The notes below the pieces were generated by a model, which saw only the letters and a program-made list of their open reading frames with translations, was not told where the DNA came from and did no database searches. A stretch of 64,000 nt of DNA from Corallococcus sp. EGB (lineage in GTDB: Bacteria > Myxococcota > Myxococcia > Myxococcales > Myxococcaceae). Each line of letters begins with the position of its first letter. The stretch's first letter is position 1. The translations under genes and the position numbers were made by a program. Below are positions 23,016 through 35,142 of this stretch, piece after piece. The stretch covers positions 4,092,001 to 4,156,000 of the forward strand of contig NZ_CP079946.1 of NCBI RefSeq assembly GCF_019968905.1, written 5' to 3'.

Positions 23016-23081
23016 CCCGCGTCGCGGAGCCCTTCCTGCCCTGACACGTCGAGGGGGCCGGGGCCGGTGTATGCTCGTGGG

Positions 23082-23528
23082 ATGTCTCCGTCATTCCTCG
23101 TGTTGTTGGTGATCGCGGTGGTCGTGGGAGCCCTCGTGGGCTCCTGGTGGCGCTCCTCCAGGCATGAGCAGCCCGCGGAGCCGCCCACCGCGCTGTCTCC
23201 GGAGAAGGGGCAGGAGCGCCTCGCGGAGTTGATCCAGGCCGGGCAGACGATTGACGCCATCAAGCTCTACCGCGCCCTCCACGGCGTAGGCCTGAAGGAG
23301 GCCAAGGACGCGGTGGACGCGATGCGGGATGGCCGGGCCTCCACGGCCCTTCCCAGTCGTCAGGCTCTGTCCGATGCAGAGGCGAACGCCGCCATCGAGC
23401 AGGCCATCTGGGACAACAACCTCATCCAGGCCATCAAGCTCTACCGCGACCTTCACGGCGTAGGCCTGAAGGAGGCCAAGGACGACGTGGAGGCGATGCG
23501 TGCCGACCTGCTCCGGCGGAGGGGATGA
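23082..23528 (+). CDS. Membrane-anchored protein with two L7/L12 C-terminal-like modules
   Basis: 148 residues: an N-terminal transmembrane helix (about 3-22, FLVLLVIAVVVGALVGSWW) followed by two copies of a ~50-residue module. Each ends in A-I-K-L-Y-R-x-L-H-G-V-G-L-K-E-A-K-D, the signature of the ribosomal protein bL12 C-terminal domain (IK-x-x-R-x-x-x-x-L-G-L-K-E-A-K). That ribosomal domain recruits translation factors; the free-standing membrane version has no assigned role. The near-identical DNA of the two modules shows a recent internal duplication. The frame also allows ATG 23067, but 23082 gives a cleaner membrane start. Confidence 0.85.
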   Translation: MSPSFLVLLVIAVVVGALVGSWWRSSRHEQPAEPPTALSPEKGQERLAELIQAGQTIDAIKLYRALHGVGLKEAKDAVDAMRDGRASTALPSRQALSDAEANAAIEQAIWDNNLIQAIKLYRDLHGVGLKEAKDDVEAMRADLLRRRG

Positions 23529-26131: not shown

Positions 26132-27091
26132 TCACGCCGTGCGCACGAAGCGGGCCTTGTTGCGTTCGAGCCAGCCGGCCAGCGACAGCACCTGGGGATT
26201 GAGCTCGCGGGTGAGCTCGGGGTCCCTGGCGGCGCAGTACTCCGGCGAGAAGTCCCGCATGAACTGGAACATGTTCGCGAACTCCGGCGCGCCGGGGAAG
26301 TTGAACGTCCGGTAGACCTCCGGCTCCATGGAGTGGAAGACCACCTCCTGTCCCAACACCAGCTTCAGCGTCCGGGCGATCTCCTGGCCCGTCAGGTGTT
26401 CACTGGCCAGCCCCACCGTCCGGCCCGCCCACGCCTCCGGCCCGCGCTGGAAGATGCCGTGGACGCAGCCGCCCACGTCCTCCGTGGCGATGCCAGGCAG
26501 CTTCCGGTCCTCCGTGGGCAGCACGAAGTCGAGCGCCCCGTCGGCGTTGCGCTTTCCTCCCAATCCGAACGACAGCAGGTTCTCCCACGAGAACGAGGTG
26601 CGCACGAACGTCACGGGCAGGTCCAGGCCGCTGAAGAACGCGTCGCTCGCGCCCTTCACGTCGAACTGCGGCACGCGGTAGTGCCCCTTGAGCATGGGCA
26701 TCCGCGTGTCTTCCGGAGGGATGAGGTGCCGGGTGTCCTCCTGGGTGGACCAGATGACGTGCGCCACCCCCGCCTCCTTCGCGGCGTGCGCCAGCGTCCG
26801 AGCCTGTGCCAGCTCGCGCTCCGGGTCGGGCCGCTCCCAGTAGCTGGTGACGCAGAAGGCGCCGTGCGCTCCGGTGAACGCGGCCTTCAGGCTCTTCGCG
26901 TCGCTCACGTCCGCCGCGACGACCTCCGCGCCCAGCTTCGCCAGCCGGCGCGCCAGCTCCGAGCCCGGCTGGCGCGTGAGCGCGCGCACCGTGAAGCCGC
27001 CCCGCGTGTCCGCGAGGATGGCGCGCACGAGGCTGCCTCCCTCGTCGCCTGTTGCTCCCACCACCGCGATGATCTTCTTGTCCATGGTCAT
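26132..27091 (-). CDS. NmrA/HSCARG-like NAD(P)-binding protein
   Basis: 319 residues with an N-terminal Rossmann motif VVGATGDEGGSLVRAIL and the NmrA-family flow (AEVVAADVSDAKSLKAAFTGAHGAFCVTSYW; VAHVIWSTQEDT). The family is atypical short-chain dehydrogenases in which the Tyr-Lys pair is often lost, acting as NADP(H) sensors or as oxidoreductases. Start 27091 (MTMDKK) or ATG 27085; AGGAC precedes both. The downstream SET-domain gene is upstream on this strand by about 35 bases, so the pair may be one transcript. Confidence 0.85.
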   Translation of the reverse strand: MTMDKKIIAVVGATGDEGGSLVRAILADTRGGFTVRALTRQPGSELARRLAKLGAEVVAADVSDAKSLKAAFTGAHGAFCVTSYWERPDPERELAQARTLAHAAKEAGVAHVIWSTQEDTRHLIPPEDTRMPMLKGHYRVPQFDVKGASDAFFSGLDLPVTFVRTSFSWENLLSFGLGGKRNADGALDFVLPTEDRKLPGIATEDVGGCVHGIFQRGPEAWAGRTVGLASEHLTGQEIARTLKLVLGQEVVFHSMEPEVYRTFNFPGAPEFANMFQFMRDFSPEYCAARDPELTRELNPQVLSLAGWLERNKARFVRTA

Positions 27092-27126: not shown

Positions 27127-28416
27127 TCATCCGCCCGCGGGCGGGGTGGGGCTCAGCGCGGAGAGGGAGGCGCGCGCGAGGCCCGCGTAGGCGTGCAGCA
27201 GCCGCTTCTCTCCGCGTCGCAAGAGCAGGCAGTTGCGCGCGTTGCGCGACAGGTCCGCCTCCCGAAGCAACCGCTCGTCCTCCTCCAGCGTGGTCCCGAA
27301 GCCCGCGAGCCGCGCCTCGCACGCGTCGTGGAGGGATCGGAAGACGCGCTCCTCCGTCTCCGCGCTCAGCGGTGCCACTTCGCCCAGGCCCTGCTCCTCG
27401 CGGGCCTCCTCGGTGAGCCGGGTCAGCTCCCGCGCGTTCGCGCACGCCACGCGCAGGAAGGAGAACATCGCCACGGTGGAGGAGTGCCCGGAGTGCAGCG
27501 GCACCTCGAAGCGGCGCCGCGACGCCGGAGTCGCCAGCGCGAGCAGCTCCCGCTTTCCCTCCGCCTCCACCGCGTCCTCGGGCACGCCCAGGTAGAGCAC
27601 CAGCGTGTCGTCCGGGTTGTCCTCCGGCACGAAGCCGTAGCTCAGGAGGAACCGGCAGCTCGGCTTGACGCCATAGCTGATGTGCAGCTCCTCGCCCGCG
27701 GCCACCGGCTCGCGCGCCACCAGCACGAAGGCGTCTCCCTCCTCCGTGTTGCCCCACGCCAGGCGCGGCGAGGCGCGGTGGTTGAGCATGTCCGCCACCG
27801 GCACGAAGCACCGCGTGAGCGTGCCCGCCACCGTCAGGCCGAAGGTGCGGCTGATCAACACGTGCTGTGCCCAGAGATACGCTTCGGGCGTGAAGCGCGC
27901 GAAGCCCGGCACCCGCTCCGCCAGCGCGACGTAGCGCGCGAGCAGCAGCTCCCTCCACCGCGCCACCTCGCGCAGCGCGGAGGAGCCCTGGAGCAGCGAC
28001 AGCTCCTGCGCGTCGAAGAACAGCGGCAGGTGCGGGAAGGACCGGGGCAGCACGTCCAGGTACGGCTTCCAGGCCGAGTCCTCCCGCTCCTGCTCCTGGA
28101 GCAGGAACGCCGCCAGGTAGCACTCCTCGCTCGTGCCGGGCGCGTGCGCGTCGATGAGCCGGCCGATGTCCGACGCTCTGGCGACCTCCAGCGTCACCAG
28201 GCACGCGCGCGGCACCCGCAGCACCTCCTCTCCTGGCGCGATGGGCACCTTGGCGAAGACGCCGCGCTCGTCGCCCTCCAGGTGCCCCACCCGCAACTTC
28301 GGGAAGCTCGCGCCCGCCTGCCTGCTCCACTGGAGTGCGAGGTGCTCCTTCAGCGGGCTCTCTTCCTCAAGGCTGTCCGGCTCTGCTTCCTGTCGCGCGC
28401 TCATTGGCTCCGCCAT
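27127..28416 (-). CDS. SET-domain protein-lysine methyltransferase, RuBisCO-LSMT/SETD3-like
   Basis: 429 residues. The split SET domain is visible: GDERGVFAKVPIAPGEEVLRVPR at the start, then after a long inserted helical part CFVPVADMLNHRASP, GEELHISYG and LLSYGFVPEDNPDD, the canonical D-x-x-N-H, G-E-E-x-x-x-x-Y-G and Y-G-F-V-x-x-x-N-P-D signatures. A ~130-residue helical C-terminal domain matches the LSMT substrate-binding region. In eukaryotes these enzymes methylate lysine or histidine on RuBisCO, aldolase, actin or elongation factors; the bacterial target is unknown. The ATG at 28416 is used because the frame upstream begins with TTG and is not protein-like; ATG 28404 is an alternative. 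Confidence 0.88.
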   Translation of the reverse strand: MAEPMSARQEAEPDSLEEESPLKEHLALQWSRQAGASFPKLRVGHLEGDERGVFAKVPIAPGEEVLRVPRACLVTLEVARASDIGRLIDAHAPGTSEECYLAAFLLQEQEREDSAWKPYLDVLPRSFPHLPLFFDAQELSLLQGSSALREVARWRELLLARYVALAERVPGFARFTPEAYLWAQHVLISRTFGLTVAGTLTRCFVPVADMLNHRASPRLAWGNTEEGDAFVLVAREPVAAGEELHISYGVKPSCRFLLSYGFVPEDNPDDTLVLYLGVPEDAVEAEGKRELLALATPASRRRFEVPLHSGHSSTVAMFSFLRVACANARELTRLTEEAREEQGLGEVAPLSAETEERVFRSLHDACEARLAGFGTTLEEDERLLREADLSRNARNCLLLRRGEKRLLHAYAGLARASLSALSPTPPAGG

Positions 28417-28567
28417 GCGTTCGGGGGGAACGCCGGGAAGACGCCGGACGCTACGGTTTGTGATTTCCAGCGGATTTTCCCGCAAGTCGTTTCGGGGATG
28501 GTTCAAGGCTTATTCACAGACATCTCGCTGCACCGTTTCCAGATGCACTTTTGGAGCACTGGAAACC

Positions 28568-29101
28568 GTGAAAGAAAACACCAATCCCTCTTTCTGGAAT
28601 GTGTGGGCGCAGTACAGGGAACCATTGTTCCAGCACGCGCTGCGGCTGATGGGAGGGAATGTGGCTGACGCGGAGGACGCGGTGGACACCGCGATGCTCC
28701 GGGCCCATCAGAAATACGTGTCGCCCGGGAAGATCCTCAACCCGAGGGCCTGGCTGGGACGCATCCTCCACAACGTATGTATGGACATCCACCGCGAGCG
28801 CCAGCGCTGGGGCGACGCCGAGGAGCGGATGGAAGGCCTGGAGTCCGCGGAGCCGCAGTCCCCGGAGCTGCTGCCCGACGCGGGCCTGCTCCAGAGCGAG
28901 AGCGCCGCGGCGGTCCACGAATGCATCCAGGCGCTGCCCGCCAATTTGAGGGGGCCCCTGGTGATGCGCTACCTCCAGGACATGTCCTATGCCGACATCG
29001 CGGAACAGCTCCGGTTGACCCACTGCAACGTGAGAAAGCGCATCCAGCTCGCGTACGGCATCCTTCGGACCACCCTGTCGCAAGAGCCGTGCCCCCGCTG
29101 A
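28568..29101 (+). CDS. RNA polymerase sigma factor, ECF-like sigma-70 family
   Basis: 177 residues. Region 2 is seen in ALRLMGGNVADAEDAVDTAM and PRAWLGRILHNVCMDIHRER; region 4 in LPANLRGPLVMRYLQDMSYADIAEQLRL followed by the helix CNVRKRIQLAYGIL. Regions 1 and 3 are absent, as in ECF factors. The GTG start at 28568 leaves GGAG eleven bases upstream; no in-frame ATG is better placed. It is divergent from the SET gene. No anti-sigma gene is adjacent, so regulation is not obvious. Confidence 0.88.
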   Translation: MKENTNPSFWNVWAQYREPLFQHALRLMGGNVADAEDAVDTAMLRAHQKYVSPGKILNPRAWLGRILHNVCMDIHRERQRWGDAEERMEGLESAEPQSPELLPDAGLLQSESAAAVHECIQALPANLRGPLVMRYLQDMSYADIAEQLRLTHCNVRKRIQLAYGILRTTLSQEPCPR

Positions 29102-29153: not shown

Positions 29154-30971
29154 TCATTCCGGGAGGCTGCGCGAGCGCACGTAGCGCCCCGGCGCCGCTT
29201 CAATGATTCGCAGCCCTCTCTCGCCGGGGACGCGAGCCGGGACGCGTCCGCCCGAGCGCGCGGACTGCCAACCGTCCCAGTCCGTCCACCATGAGCCCGG
29301 GCGCTCCACCGCGTCCTGGAGCCACGCGTCCGCGTCCGGAAGCGATGCAATCCCATCCGCGTCCGCGAATGACGCTGGCGCGTCCGATCCCAACGCAAAC
29401 GCATTCGTTTTGTCATCAGGCGTAATCCCAATTGCGTTCCCGAGCGACGCGAGTGCGTTTCCCGATGACGCAATCCCAGTCGCGTTTTCGGAGGACGCGG
29501 TTGCGTTCCCGGATGACGCACCCCCATGGGGCCTCGGGATCCAATGACGATACCTGTTCGCGGACGGCGGGTTGATGACGCCGGCGACATGGCCCGAGCC
29601 CGCGAGCACGAACCGCACGGGTCCCCGGTAGTGCCTCGCTCCCCGATACACCGAGCGGAAGGGCGCGATGTGGTCCTCCCGGCAGGCTTGCACGTAGAGG
29701 GGCGTCTTCACGCGGCCCAGGTCCAGGGGGACGCCCGCGAGCGATAGCGCGCCTGGCTGGACCAGGCGGTTGTGCAGGTACAGCTCCCGCAGGTACGTCG
29801 CGTGCGCGCGCGCGGGCATGCGCGTGGGGTCGGTGCTCCACGCGAGGAAATCGCTCGGGGCCGGCTCCCGACCGAGCAGGTAGTTGTTCACCACGAAGGG
29901 CCAGACCAGGTCCCTCGCCCGGAGCAGGTTGAAGGTGGTCATCATCTCCAGCCCCTCCAGATAGCCGCGCTCGCGCATGTGGGCCTCCAGCCGCTCCAAC
30001 CGCGGCGCGTCGATGAAGGCCCCCAGATCCCCCGGTTCGCTGAAGTCCACCTGCGTGGTGAGCAGCGTCGCGCTGGCGACGCGTGCGTCAGCCCGGGCGG
30101 CGAGCCACGCGAGCCCCGACGCCAGCAGCGTCCCTCCAATGCAGTAGCCCAGCGCGGAGACCCGCTCCTCGCCGGTGGCGCGGGTGACGGCCTTGAGCGC
30201 GGCGAGCAGCCCGTGCACGAGGTAGTCCTCCCACTCCACGTCCGCGTGCGTCTCGTCGGGGTTCACCCAGGAGATGAGGAACACCGTGTACCCGCGCTCC
30301 ACCGCCCAGCGGACGAACGAGTTCTCCGGGCGCAGGTCCAGGATGTAGAACTTGTTGATCCACGGCGGTACCACCAGCAGCGGCTGGCGGTGGACGGTGG
30401 GCGTGGTGGGCCGGTACTGGATGAGCTGGAACAGGCGCTCTTCATGGACCACGTCGCCCGGCGTGGTGGCCAGGTTCTCCCCCAGCCGGAACGTCCGCCG
30501 GTCCGTCATGCGCGTCGCCAGTTGGCCCTGGCCCCGCGCCAGGTCCTCGCACAGCGCCTCCAGTCCCTTGAGCAGGCTCAGGCCGTGGGACTCGCGCGCG
30601 GCGCGGAGCACCTCCGGGTTGAGCGCGGGGAAGTTGGACGGAGACAGCGCGTCGGTGAGCTGGCGCGCGTAGAAGCGGGCCTGGTGCGCCGTGTGCCGGT
30701 CCACGCCCGGCGCCTGGGCCACCAGGTCCTCCAGCCAGCCCGCGCCGGTGAGGTACGCGCGGCGCAGGCCGTCGAAGAAGGGCTGCTCGCTCCACGCCGG
30801 GGCCCGGAAGCGGCGGTCCGGCGCGGGAGGGGGGGACTCCGGGGGGACGCCCCCGCGCAGGGAGCGTCCCCACAGGTCGACTCCCGCCGCGAGCATCCGC
30901 TGGGGATCCATCGCCAGCCGGAGGAGGACTTCCAGGAAGGCGCGCCGCATGGGCTCCAGGGATGCGTCCAT
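29154..30971 (-). CDS. phaC: Class I polyhydroxyalkanoate synthase with a repeat-derived insertion
   Basis: 605 residues. The PhaC catalytic triad is in place: Cys277 in the lipase-box-like GYCIGG, Asp433 in REDHIAPF and His461 in GSGHVAGVINPP. The C-terminal block PGSWWTDWDGW is also typical. It polymerises (R)-3-hydroxyacyl-CoA into storage polyester on granule surfaces. Between His461 and the terminal Trp block lies a ~65-residue Asn/Ala/Ser-rich insert (about 481-546) built from degenerate repeats, absent from ordinary PhaC. AAGGAG precedes the ATG. It follows phaB by 12 bases, forming a phaB-phaC operon. Confidence 0.93.
   Translation of the reverse strand: MDASLEPMRRAFLEVLLRLAMDPQRMLAAGVDLWGRSLRGGVPPESPPPAPDRRFRAPAWSEQPFFDGLRRAYLTGAGWLEDLVAQAPGVDRHTAHQARFYARQLTDALSPSNFPALNPEVLRAARESHGLSLLKGLEALCEDLARGQGQLATRMTDRRTFRLGENLATTPGDVVHEERLFQLIQYRPTTPTVHRQPLLVVPPWINKFYILDLRPENSFVRWAVERGYTVFLISWVNPDETHADVEWEDYLVHGLLAALKAVTRATGEERVSALGYCIGGTLLASGLAWLAARADARVASATLLTTQVDFSEPGDLGAFIDAPRLERLEAHMRERGYLEGLEMMTTFNLLRARDLVWPFVVNNYLLGREPAPSDFLAWSTDPTRMPARAHATYLRELYLHNRLVQPGALSLAGVPLDLGRVKTPLYVQACREDHIAPFRSVYRGARHYRGPVRFVLAGSGHVAGVINPPSANRYRHWIPRPHGGASSGNATASSENATGIASSGNALASLGNAIGITPDDKTNAFALGSDAPASFADADGIASLPDADAWLQDAVERPGSWWTDWDGWQSARSGGRVPARVPGERGLRIIEAAPGRYVRSRSLPE
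29334..29534. repeat. Degenerate minisatellite inside phaC
   Basis: On the plus strand, units such as GCGTTCCCGGATGACGCA and variants (GCGTTTCCCGATGACGCA, GCGTTTTCGGAGGACGCG) recur at intervals of roughly 18-27 bases, all multiples that keep the phaC frame. The stretch is noticeably less GC-rich at third positions than its surroundings. It encodes the Asn/Ala/Ser insert. Confidence 0.7.
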
Positions 30972-30983
30972 CCGCGGGCTCCT

Positions 30984-31709
30984 TCAGTACATGTGCTGCC
31001 CACCGTTGATGGTGAGCGTGGAGCCGGTGATGAAGCCGGCCTTGTCGGAGGCGAGGAACGTCACGGCGCGGGCGATCTCGTCGGAGTGCCCCAGGCGGCC
31101 CACGGGGATGCGCACGCGAATGCGCGCCAGCTCGTCCGGAGGCACCGTGCGCATCATGTCCGTGTCGATGTAGCCCGGCGCGATGAGGTTGGCGGTGACG
31201 CCGCGGGCGGCGCCCTCACGCGCCAGCGCCAGGGTGAAGCCGTGCATGCCGGCCTTGGCCGCCGCGTAGGCCGTCTGGCCCAGCTGGCCCGTCTGCCCGT
31301 TGATGGAGCCGATGTTGATGATGCGGCCGAAGCCCCGCTCGCGCATCGGGCCCACCACCACGTTGCACAGGTTGAAGCACGAGGTGAGGTTCGTCTGGAT
31401 GACCTCGTTCCACTGCTCGGGCGTCATCTTGTGCAGCATGGCGTCCCGGGTGATGCCGGCGTTGTTCACCAGCACCTCGATGGGGCCCAGCGTGTCGACG
31501 ATCTTCTTCACGCCCACGGCGCACTGCGCGGTGTTGGCGGCGTCGAAGCGGAACGCCGGGATGCCGGTGCGCCCCGTGAAGCTCTGCGCCGCCTGCTCAT
31601 TCGCATTGTAGGTGACCGCCACGCGGTATCCCTGCTGCCGCAGGGCGTCGGCGCTCGCGGCCCCAATGCCGCGCGTTCCTCCTGTCACCACTGCCACGCG
31701 TCCACTCAT
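30984..31709 (-). CDS. phaB: Acetoacetyl-CoA reductase
   Basis: 241 residues of the classical short-chain dehydrogenase family: cofactor motif VTGGTRGIG, NNAG in VLVNNAGITRD, and the active site Ser in GSINGQTGQLGQTAY with the Y-x-x-x-K pair (YAAAK). The segment INGQTGQLGQTAYAAAKAG is characteristic of PhaB rather than FabG. It reduces acetoacetyl-CoA to (R)-3-hydroxybutyryl-CoA with NADPH, the direct precursor for PhaC encoded 12 bases downstream. No thiolase (phaA) is in the window. Confidence 0.93.
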   Translation of the reverse strand: MSGRVAVVTGGTRGIGAASADALRQQGYRVAVTYNANEQAAQSFTGRTGIPAFRFDAANTAQCAVGVKKIVDTLGPIEVLVNNAGITRDAMLHKMTPEQWNEVIQTNLTSCFNLCNVVVGPMRERGFGRIINIGSINGQTGQLGQTAYAAAKAGMHGFTLALAREGAARGVTANLIAPGYIDTDMMRTVPPDELARIRVRIPVGRLGHSDEIARAVTFLASDKAGFITGSTLTINGGQHMY

Positions 31710-31932
31710 GTCTGTCTCCGGGGTTGAGAGCTGCGCCAGAAGGACGCGGACGCCCGCCGGGTGTGAATGGCGCGACCCGAGCGGCCTGGCGTGGATTCAC
31801 AAGCGCGCGGGCGCGGACGTCCCTGGAGCGCTGCCTCGGGGGAGCGGGGGATCTGGGAAGGGTGGATTGGGATCCATCAGCTCCCGCGCCTCCGGGGCGG
31901 CACTCCACCGCAGCACCCGCGAGAGGACAGCC

Positions 31933-33075
31933 ATGACACAGCCGCAAGCACCCCAGGAGCGCCCGCAGGTCATCGTCGTCTTTCAAGGCGGCGGGGCGCT
32001 GGGCGCCTATCACGTGGGGGCCTATCAGGCCCTGGAGGAGGCCGGCCTGCGTCCGGACTGGGTCTCCGGCATCTCCATTGGCGCCTTCACCGCCGCGCTG
32101 GTCGCGGGCAACCGCCCGGAGCAGCGGCTCGAGCGGCTGGAGGCGTTCTGGCGCGAGGTGTCCTGGCCGGGCAGTGAGTGGGGCTCGCTCCTCAAGGGGC
32201 GCCTGCGCCAGCTCTTCAACCTGGGCAGCCACCTGACCAGCCTGCTCTTCGGTCAGCCCGGCTTCTACGCGCCCCGCGCGCTGTCCCCGCTGTTCGCGCC
32301 GCCGGGCTCGCCGGAGGCGCTGAGCTTCTACACCACCCGGCCCATGCGCTCGACGCTGCGGCGGCTGGTGGACTTCGACTACATCAACTCTCGCGCGACG
32401 CGGCTGAGCCTGGGCGCCACCCGCGTGAGCGACGGCCACCTGGTGTTCTTCGACAACACGCGCTGCGCCCTGGGGCCGGAGCACGTGCTCGCCAGCGGCG
32501 CGCTGCCGCCCGCCTTCCCGCCCAGCGTCATCGACGGGGAGCTGTACTGGGACGGCGGCTGCGTCACCAATACGCCGCTCAACGCCATCCTGGATGACCC
32601 GCCCCAGCGGCACTCGCTCGTCTTCATGATCGACCTGTTCGAGGCGCGCGCCCCGCTGCCGCAGAACCTGGACGAGGCGAGCTGGCGCATGAAGTCCATC
32701 CAGTTCGCGGGCCGCGCGTCGCAGCAGGTGGACCAGTTCGCGACCGTGTGGAACCTGCGCCGGACCTCGACCCAGGTGACGCGACACATGTCCGCGTCCT
32801 CGCCGCTCGCGTTCAGCGACGAGCCCCTGGCGAAGCCCGCGCCCAGGCTGGACATCATCCACCTGACGTACCAGCGCGGCGCGCACCAGATCTCCAGCAG
32901 CGACGCGGAGTTCTCCCGCGCCTCCATCGCGGAGCGCCGCGCGGACGGCTACCGCGACATGGCGCGCGCCCTGGCGAGCTCACCGTGGACGCAGTCCGTG
33001 GCGAGCGGCCCCCAGGCGTTCAGTGACGAGGCCCAGGCGCCGGCCGAAGGGGGCGCCGTCGTCCACCGCCTCTAG
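31933..33075 (+). CDS. Patatin-like phospholipase/hydrolase
   Basis: 380 residues. The patatin motifs are complete: oxyanion loop FQGGGALGAYHVG, nucleophile elbow ISIGAF (G-x-S-x-G) and the dyad Asp in YWDGGCVTNTPL. A ~100-residue C-terminal tail follows. Bacterial patatins hydrolyse phospholipids or other acyl esters. This type (with the PHA neighbours) is often annotated as DUF3734-containing and found beside phaB/phaC, so a link to PHA granule turnover is plausible but inferred. GAGAGG precedes ATG 31933. The divergent region with phaB (223 bases) holds both promoters. Confidence 0.9.
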   Translation: MTQPQAPQERPQVIVVFQGGGALGAYHVGAYQALEEAGLRPDWVSGISIGAFTAALVAGNRPEQRLERLEAFWREVSWPGSEWGSLLKGRLRQLFNLGSHLTSLLFGQPGFYAPRALSPLFAPPGSPEALSFYTTRPMRSTLRRLVDFDYINSRATRLSLGATRVSDGHLVFFDNTRCALGPEHVLASGALPPAFPPSVIDGELYWDGGCVTNTPLNAILDDPPQRHSLVFMIDLFEARAPLPQNLDEASWRMKSIQFAGRASQQVDQFATVWNLRRTSTQVTRHMSASSPLAFSDEPLAKPAPRLDIIHLTYQRGAHQISSSDAEFSRASIAERRADGYRDMARALASSPWTQSVASGPQAFSDEAQAPAEGGAVVHRL

Positions 33076-33111
33076 CAGCGTCCACCTGTCGCAACCCGAA
33101 GGAGCCATGCC

Positions 33112-33438
33112 ATGACCGAAGCGAAGAGAGTCGATCCGTATGCCCACTTGATGGACCTGGGGCGGGGCCTGCTGCACCAGGCCGTCGCCGTCCAGCGCTC
33201 CGCGCTCGAATACTCCCGGCAGTTCGTGGAGGGGGATGCCGCCGTGAGGCCGCTGCGCTCGCAGCACGAGGAGTGGGGGCGCAAGGCGCTGGAGACCCTG
33301 GCGCCGTTCTACGCGCTGGAGCAGCTGGCTCGCGAGCAGCTGCTCAAGGCGCAGGCCCACCTGTTCGAGCTGGCCGACGACACCCTGCGCAACCTCACGC
33401 TGCAGGGGGTGGAGCGCGGCGGGCACCGCTCCGCCTGA
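33112..33438 (+). CDS. Small helical protein, phasin-like candidate
   Basis: 108 residues, almost wholly alpha-helical and amphipathic (LLHQAVAVQRSALEYSRQFVEG; ALEQLAREQLLKAQAHLFELADD), with no Cys and no membrane helix. Size, composition and place in a PHA locus fit a phasin, a granule-surface protein, although I do not see a diagnostic phasin motif. AAGGAG lies just upstream, 36 bases after the patatin stop, so the two are likely co-transcribed. Confidence 0.7.
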   Translation: MTEAKRVDPYAHLMDLGRGLLHQAVAVQRSALEYSRQFVEGDAAVRPLRSQHEEWGRKALETLAPFYALEQLAREQLLKAQAHLFELADDTLRNLTLQGVERGGHRSA

Positions 33439-33508: not shown

Positions 33509-34960
33509 TCAGCGCGAGGCCAATGGCAGACGCACGGCGGGGTCGCCCAGGAGCACGTAGCCGCCCAGGTCCTGGCGGAGCATCCACAGGTGCGAGCGCC
33601 GCAGCGGATCCACGGAGGAGGCCTTCCCGGCGCTCCGGGCCGCCTCCTCCTGGTCATACAGCGTGGTCAGCTCCAGGTTGGCCTGGTGGCCCCCGCGCAG
33701 CAGCCAGCTCAGTCCCAGGCCCACACGCCGCCCCCGCGCCAGTTGCTGGAGCGGCTCCAGGAAGCGGGACACCTTGCCCTGGCGGTGGTCGCGGTCCTGG
33801 AAGCCATACGTCCACGCCAGGTCCACGTGGCCGATGACCGCCAATGGCCCCTGGGGGTTGGCCAGCGCGGACTGCGGCAGCGCGGCGACGAAGGGGCGCT
33901 CCCCGGGCCGGGGCAGCGCCGCGGTGAGCGAGTCCAGCCTCCCGCTGAACTGGCCTCCCGCCTGCAACTGCTTCAACCAATGATGGAAGGCGCTGCGCGA
34001 CGGCGTGCCCGCGCCGAAGCACGCGAAGAGGAACCAGATGCCGCCGGGCAGGAACGGCCGTTGGGCCAGCGCCGCGCCATCCAGGTGCTGGCCCTCGCCC
34101 AGGTTGAGCGCTCCCTGGAGCGCGAGCTTCGCGTCGGTGCTCCGCCAGCCCGCGCGGGGGCTGCCCAGGCCATGGCTCATGGAGAAGAGCAGGGTGGGTT
34201 CCTGGAGCGCGGCCTGCTCCAGGAGCGCGTTGGCGCCGGGTTCTCCCGGCGCGCCCAGCTCCAGCACGTCCCGCGCGGGAAAGCGGCCCAGCTCCCGCGC
34301 CTGCCGCGCTGACGCGATGGCCGGGGCCACCAGCGACTGATAGCCCGTCCGCGTCGCGGCGGTGCCGTCGTGGACGGTGAAGAAGAGCGAGCGGGGCTGA
34401 CGCTGCGCGGACGGCGCGTTCTCCCAGCGCAGCACCTTGTCCACGTAGGCCGCGTAGTCCTCGTCGCGCCGGAAGGCCAGCCGCCCCACGTAGGCGTCGT
34501 GGGCCGCGGCCTGCTGCAGCTCGAAGGGCACCTGGTGGAAGTCCCCCAGGAAGAGCAGGTAGCGGGGCCGGTCCTCCACGGGCACCGCTTCGTCGTCCAG
34601 CACGACGCGCACCCAGCGGGTGAAGTCCTCCAGGTTCCGCCCCTCCGCGGCCAGCTCCGGGCCCACCCGGTACACGCGCACCGGGTGGCCATCCTGCTGT
34701 CCCTGCCGGTGGCGGCGCAGGGGGTCGATCAGCGCGAGCAGCCGGTCACCTTCCGGCCCCTCCGGCGCCACCAGCCCCCAGCGCTGCGCGGGCAGGGAGT
34801 TGGGGTCCTCGCCATCGTCCCACAGGTGGCTCTCCTCGCGCCCCCGCGCGTCGTCGTCGAGCGGGGCCCGTGTCGCGGCGTCGGCGGGCAGACCCTCGGG
34901 GGCCACCGGCTCGTGTGAATCGGCGTGGGACAACAACAGTTCTACGTTCTGCGTGCTCAT
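33509..34960 (-). CDS. CHAT/C25 gingipain-like caspase-fold peptidase
   Basis: 483 residues. The N-terminal ~55 are acidic and low in complexity. The rest resembles the peptidase C25/CHAT branch of the caspase-like clan: VGRLAFRRDEDYAAYVDKVLRWE (the gingipain-type V-G-R...D-K-x-L-x-W/Y-E strand-helix), candidate catalytic His263 in LLFSMSHGLGS and Cys314 in GIWFLFACFGAGT. It should be a cysteine endopeptidase; specificity is unknown. No signal peptide. Start 34960 has CAGGAG eleven bases upstream. It is divergent from two small genes that could encode partners or substrates, and a CHAT-STAND-WD40 gene follows 2 kb away. Confidence 0.75.
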   Translation of the reverse strand: MSTQNVELLLSHADSHEPVAPEGLPADAATRAPLDDDARGREESHLWDDGEDPNSLPAQRWGLVAPEGPEGDRLLALIDPLRRHRQGQQDGHPVRVYRVGPELAAEGRNLEDFTRWVRVVLDDEAVPVEDRPRYLLFLGDFHQVPFELQQAAAHDAYVGRLAFRRDEDYAAYVDKVLRWENAPSAQRQPRSLFFTVHDGTAATRTGYQSLVAPAIASARQARELGRFPARDVLELGAPGEPGANALLEQAALQEPTLLFSMSHGLGSPRAGWRSTDAKLALQGALNLGEGQHLDGAALAQRPFLPGGIWFLFACFGAGTPSRSAFHHWLKQLQAGGQFSGRLDSLTAALPRPGERPFVAALPQSALANPQGPLAVIGHVDLAWTYGFQDRDHRQGKVSRFLEPLQQLARGRRVGLGLSWLLRGGHQANLELTTLYDQEEAARSAGKASSVDPLRRSHLWMLRQDLGGYVLLGDPAVRLPLASR

Positions 34961-35142
34961 CTTGGGGATGGCTCCTGGCGCCACGCGCCCGGGAAGTCGG
35001 GCGTGTGAGGGCAGGACGCGGCGGAGGACGGCCGTGTGAGCCATGGATGTCTGGCGTTGGCATTCACACACAAACGGCGCGTGACGTCCTGTGGACGCAG
35101 TGCCCGGCATGTCGCCGTCAACCCAACCCCAGGAGCACGCCC

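Follow-up and report, generated by a model that had tools for sequence, protein, structure and literature searches.

A SET/LSMT-type gene of Corallococcus sp. EGB and its probable product, a protein lysine N-methyltransferase of the LSMT/SETD3/SETD6 class

To our knowledge all LSMT, SETD3 and SETD6 enzymes studied so far are eukaryotic. The occurrence of a gene of this type in the genome of Corallococcus sp. EGB raises the questions of what kind of enzyme it encodes, which residue of which protein this enzyme would methylate, and in which direction the gene passed between eukaryotes and bacteria. In this article we analysed a 64,000-nucleotide stretch of this genome (contig NZ_CP079946.1, positions 4,092,001 to 4,156,000; called the window, with positions counted from its first letter) together with the related loci of other bacteria. 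As a whole the results are best explained, with a probability of roughly 0.8, by a lysine N-methyltransferase of the LSMT/SETD3/SETD6 class which has a presumed docking domain, was probably acquired long ago and stands in a gene context characteristic of the genus. The protein adds one more member, from an unusual host, to an enzyme class already known; a homologue from Cystobacter is already in print, given as an example in PMC6289574.

The gene, its domains and its predicted fold

The SET gene extends from 27127 to 28404 on the minus strand, as judged from the open reading frame, the Pfam domains, the conservation of the start codon and the dN/dS values, and it is closed by the stop codon TGA at 27127-27129. 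Translation from the ATG at 28404 gives 425 amino acids, and from the ATG at 28416 it gives 429. The reading frame of 27127-28416 given in an earlier note on this DNA is real, but the start is more likely the ATG at 28404 (MSAR...), since one of the six copies known in the genus has Thr in place of the upstream Met, while all six conserve the Met of MSA. Residue numbers of the window protein (F192, A208, I246, Y248 and the domain borders) follow the 429 amino acid form. Five further genomes of the genus carry orthologues that are 81-90% identical, and because the dN/dS values of the window copy against these five are 0.25-0.57, the sequence comparison indicates a working gene under purifying selection.

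Both Pfam domains of the protein exceed their curated cut-offs. The SET domain, interrupted by a long insert, covers residues 51-249 (27670..28266, minus strand, E=9.9e-10) and contains F192, A208, N212-H213, I246 and Y248; the C-terminal helical Rubis-subs-bind domain (PF09273) covers residues 285-407 (27196..27564, minus strand) with E=6.6e-22 and scores 79 bits (cut-off 21.6). In NCBIfam the protein matched nothing, even at E values as high as 1. The bipartite SET domain, the LSMT-like C-terminal domain and the motifs which the earlier note had read from the letters (N212-H213, Y248-G249 and Y260-G-F-V-x-x-x-N-P-D) are all present. PF09273 occurs at a single place in the host genome (9.43 Mb, one contig). 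Three short proteins of the same genome (L001-L003) also carry a SET domain, but in these the match to SET is about 303-309 bases long, compared with 597 in the SET gene, and the PF09273 match is absent from them.

An AlphaFold2 model of the window protein, built from 20 window and locus proteins (pLDDT 83.8, pTM 0.79), shares its fold with the solved LSMT, SETD3 and SETD6 over almost the entire length. Comparison by VIA-align gave Z 33.0 over 382 residues with pea LSMT (1mlv), 31.1 over 413 residues with SETD3, 27.6 over 371 residues with SETD6 and 19-22 with the plastid pTAC14, and the next group in the fold listing, SMYD, begins from Z 11.1 with just 209 residues. Foldseek ranked SETD3 first, with E down to 3.5e-25. 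In the sequence search of the PDB the best-scoring chain was the N255F/W273A mutant of SETD3 (4e-36), a double mutant described in PMC10819646, followed by other SETD3 chains (3e-34 to 5e-34), pea LSMT (3e-26) and SETD6 (3e-11). The identity of the window protein is 26% to LSMT, 27% to SETD3 and 25% to SETD6, and these three are 22-27% identical to each other. The class proposed in the earlier note is thus upheld by the Pfam domains, by the predicted fold and by the motifs.

Each of the three solved relatives resembles the window protein in its own way. Pea LSMT shares its two-domain architecture, its fold and the Phe/Ala/Ile/Tyr set of its pocket, and differs from it in sequence and in the residue following the catalytic Tyr (Y-D in LSMT, Y-G in the window protein); moreover pea LSMT is linked to the chloroplast and to RuBisCO, and the window protein shows no such link. 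SETD3, the methyltransferase of actin His73, is the best sequence match in the PDB and agrees in fold along the full length, but its His-specific N255 and W273 are replaced by Phe and Ala in the window protein. We know of no actin substrate in the host. SETD6, the lysine methyltransferase of RelA, has the same fold and the same Phe and Ala in the pocket, although it scores lowest of the three and carries Asn where the window protein has I246.

The target pocket and the proposed reaction

According to the structural description in PMC6684798, the target pocket of SETD3 is lined by Asn255, Trp273, Ile310 and Tyr312; SETD6 and LSMT have Phe for Asn255 and Ala for Trp273, and at the place of Ile310 LSMT keeps Ile, whereas SETD6 has Asn. 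In the alignment the window protein has F192, A208, I246 and Y248 at these places, which is the LSMT set. The codons lie on the minus strand at 27841..27843 (F192, equivalent to SETD3 N255), 27793..27795 (A208, equivalent to W273) and 27673..27675 (Y248, the catalytic Tyr, equivalent to Y312), the roles of the first two being taken from the same paper. Since the equivalents of N255 and W273 are Phe and Ala, as in LSMT and SETD6, the likely target residue of the window enzyme is lysine, and histidine finds no support in the sequence. From the lysine-or-histidine methylation suggested earlier we therefore retain the lysine.

The pocket was followed through an alignment of 20 bacterial rows, taken from the 23 known places by omitting the near-identical copies L022 and L033 and the C-terminal fragment L036. 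Position 192 is Phe and position 248 is Tyr in all 20 rows; position 208 is Ala in 13, Val in three, Ser in two, Gly in one and Leu in one. The SETD3-type Asn or Trp was found in the pocket of none of the 20. Position 246 is Ile in seven rows, Asp in seven and Thr in six, and this wall of the pocket differs among the genera. The His of the N-H motif is absent from six of the 20 rows, all belonging to genus g16 (L013, L017, L021, L030, L031 and L035), where N-D-G or N-A-S stands in place of N-H in each and the catalytic Tyr is retained. These multi-copy paralogues of g16 have possibly altered or lost their activity.

On this basis we propose that the window protein would act as a SAM-dependent protein lysine N-methyltransferase, probably in the cytosol; inspection of its N-terminus by eye revealed no evident signal peptide. 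The SET domain would bind SAM and admit one substrate lysine to a pocket lined by F192, A208, I246 and the catalytic Y248. The C-terminal helical domain, by homology, might hold a folded substrate protein at a site distant from the lysine to be methylated, in the manner of LSMT with RuBisCO. The substrate would probably be one specific protein.

Other functions have to be weighed against this proposal. A SETD3-like protein histidine methyltransferase, acting for example on an actin-like protein, is suggested by the rank of SETD3, which is the top match among the solved structures by sequence and by Foldseek alike; we nevertheless regard it as very improbable, because the specificity residues are of the lysine type (N255 to F, W273 to A), because Asn or Trp is missing at these places throughout the bacterial alignment, and because VIA-align places the lysine enzyme LSMT slightly ahead of SETD3 (Z 33.0 vs 31.1). 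The protein might also be a degenerate, non-catalytic relative retained for binding alone. The plastid PAP7/pTAC14 proteins have been suggested to be such binding-only relatives, pTAC14 belongs to the same fold group, and the loss of the N-H His in all six rows of g16 indicates that one bacterial clade may have moved in this direction; against it the window protein retains N-H, the catalytic Tyr and the LSMT-type pocket and evolves under purifying selection, which makes this reading unlikely for the Corallococcus enzyme.

Very little weight can be given to a secreted effector which would methylate proteins of eukaryotic prey or hosts, even though the bacterial SET proteins NUE and RomA are described as targeting host chromatin. 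The window protein shows no secretion signal by eye, and among 16 neighbouring window genes scanned with Pfam none is an ankyrin or secretion gene. We know of no SET effector that carries an LSMT domain, and this too speaks against a role outside the cell.

Distribution and origin of the bacterial clade

The PF09273 family was detected in 16 of 96 genomes and in four of 26 genera of the host family: in six of 16 genomes of the host genus, three of six of g8, all four of g12 and three of seven of g16, and in none of the 27 genomes of genus g41. In a sample of the phylum 17 of 195 genomes were matched, namely the same 16 and G177, and the same 17 were matched in a sample of 384 genomes of relatives. 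The match in G177 (L029), the sole one outside the host family, was rejected as spurious, with 18.7 bits against the cut-off of 21.6 and a protein that gives no SET match. No match was obtained in a sample built around another phylum and comprising 386 genomes from 326 genera (the 20 listed are all labelled 'same domain'), nor in sets of 82, 4 and 17 genomes from three other phyla, nor in 14 control genomes; these samples overlap and cover the large bacterial phyla and the archaea thinly, so that zero matches there do not prove absence.

A tblastn search of plasmid and phage collections gave no match, and scans of viral contigs with A1 and with pea LSMT yielded 28 and 4 pattern stretches, respectively, none of them confirmed. 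A single-protein scan of genome contigs yielded 33 pattern stretches and one confirmed locus, in Corallococcus carmarthensis; such a scan reaches close relatives alone, missed all the copies of other genera found by PF09273, and has little bearing on other phyla. Within the bacterial clade divergence is deep, and up to four copies occur in one genome. The genome G121 has four places, one of which (L036:1444-2034) holds the C-terminal LSMT half alone, near a contig end; by eye, a helix-turn-helix-like stretch precedes this half.

In a tree of the 20 bacterial rows with LSMT, SETD3 and a partial SETD6 the bacterial rows form one clade (99/99), which lies neither inside nor beside any single one of the three paralogues. 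The order of LSMT, SETD3 and SETD6 around this clade received a support of 71/36 only, and the alternative orders are not rejected, with p-AU values of 0.40 and 0.33. In this tree long branches come together, the composition of SETD3 and of LSMT is deviant, and SETD6 is incomplete. The identities are likewise star-like, the bacterial clade being equidistant from the three eukaryotic paralogues. The SET gene has a GC content of 72.2% and a GC3 of 94% (window GC 70.4%), and the foreign composition expected of a recent transfer is not seen. Since GC and GC3 match those of the neighbouring genes, any transfer of the SET gene would be old, not recent.

The direction of such a transfer has been raised in print. 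PMC6289574 (eLife 2018) reports SETD3 orthologues in almost all eukaryotes and, with the Cystobacter fuscus homologue as its example, proposes that eukaryotes may have acquired SETD3 from a prokaryote. This homologue (WP_095987699.1), with about 30% identity to SETD3 by the description given there, presumably belongs to the same bacterial clade as the window protein. The main text of a 2014 review of bacterial SET proteins (PMC3980110) does not contain the terms 'rubisco', 'lsmt', 'setd' or 'myxo'.

If the family were anciently bacterial, residing in the Myxococcota, and eukaryotes had received their SETD3/LSMT-type enzymes from such a bacterium, the deep divergence of the clade and its copy number of up to four per genome would be readily understood, and the identities (25-27% between the window protein and each paralogue, 22-27% among the paralogues) would be consistent with a clade that may branch outside all three. 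We hold this origin, the one suggested for SETD3 in PMC6289574, to be possible but doubtful: the family is restricted to four of the 26 genera of one family, with no true match elsewhere in the genomes searched, whereas SETD3 orthologues are reported from almost all eukaryotes. It is this narrow and patchy occurrence in the sampled prokaryotes, set against the wide occurrence of SETD3 in eukaryotes described in that paper, which favours transfer from a eukaryote; the tree gives no direction. The transfer from a eukaryote proposed in the earlier note thus gains from the narrow distribution and is neither supported nor refuted by the three-paralogue tree, which groups the bacterial clade with no single one of them, and for the deep vertical bacterial ancestry which that note had set against transfer, no true match was found beyond one family in the genomes searched.

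The pattern of occurrence fits an old and narrow acquisition. As judged from the distribution, the SET gene would have arisen in, or entered, an ancestor of some Myxococcaceae long ago, passage from eukaryote to bacterium being more likely than the reverse, and loss, duplication and relocation would have followed.

Gene context in the genus and its meaning

In the host genus the SET gene has constant neighbours. An NmrA-like NAD(P)-binding protein (26132..27091, minus strand, Pfam) is encoded 35 bases downstream on the same strand and adjoins the SET gene in all five other loci of the genus; judging from this gene order the two genes are probably co-transcribed. On the other side, and likewise in all five other loci, stands a divergent ECF sigma factor gene with the start GTG (28568..29101, plus strand; Sigma70_r2 and Sigma70_r4_2, sigma70-ECF above cut-off). 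The intergenic region between them (28405..28567) contains the TGGAAAC-containing block TGGAAACGGTGCAGCG, which is conserved across six genomes of the genus, apart from a single substitution in one. The TGGAAAC-type block resembles a -35 element of ECF type, and no clear -10 spacing was seen for it in this region; that the ECF sigma factor drives the SET gene is a guess.

Beyond the sigma factor lies a PHA cassette (29154..33438), which co-occurs with the SET gene in the genus and encodes a class I PhaC (29154-30971, minus strand) and an acetoacetyl-CoA reductase (30984-31709, minus strand), both assigned by NCBIfam, a patatin (31921-33075, plus strand) and a small protein (33112-33438, plus strand). 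It is followed by a caspase-like/peptidase C25-type protein (33509-35047, minus strand), assigned by a short match to PF01364 of 25.7 bits. The order NmrA-like, SET, divergent ECF sigma, PhaC, acetoacetyl-CoA reductase, patatin, small protein and C25/caspase-like is kept in all five other SET-bearing genomes of the genus. Two further features of the window were recorded: towards its C-terminus the PhaC contains a repetitive insert rich in Ala, Ser, Asn and Gly, and the stretch over which PhaC matches varies from copy to copy in the genus; and a small protein at 23067-23528 (plus strand) carries two ribosomal L7/L12 C-terminal-like repeats after a hydrophobic N-terminus.

Long matches to the ECF-PhaC-reductase DNA were obtained in exactly the same six of the 16 genomes of the genus which have the SET gene. 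In the ten others the matching pieces are shorter than 540 bases and belong mostly to the reductase, among the best 18 of about 540-690 candidates per genome; three of these ten (G010, G014 and G008) show no piece over window 25.5-33.8 kb at E 1e-30 among the best 40 of about 1,000 candidates per genome, and with such candidate limits weaker matches may be missed. Because no such piece was reported in these three genomes, window 25.5-33.8 kb behaves as an accessory block. Rearrangements are also seen in the flanking genes, so that no clean insertion site can be named.

Outside the genus the context is different. At 12 of the 17 loci outside the host genus, examined with wide flanks, none of the other window genes among the 15 used lies nearby at E 1e-10. 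By crude gene calling, neighbours recur within one genus only (L043 and L049 in g12, L047 and L048 in g8), with the exception of one neighbour family common to L039 and L052. Since no other window gene was found near these 12 outside loci, the association with PHA is a trait of the genus and gives no clue to the substrate.

A more far-reaching idea is that these bacteria have a dedicated 'dock and methylate' system for lysine, in which an LSMT-type enzyme under the divergent ECF sigma factor would mark a single lysine on a bacterial target; in Corallococcus this target might be tied to the neighbouring PHA granule cassette. We put it forward as a speculation whose odds are low. If it were true, this would be the first bacterial substrate of an LSMT-class enzyme, as far as our searches of the open-licence PMC literature reach, and the bacterial clade would help to decide which way the class travelled between bacteria and eukaryotes.

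As a family-restricted clade with a lysine-type pocket, these proteins offer small bacterial enzymes for probing the substrate choice of the class. The clade also bears on the idea printed in 2018 that eukaryotes took SETD3 from a prokaryote (PMC6289574): judging by the distribution described above, this direction now looks less probable.
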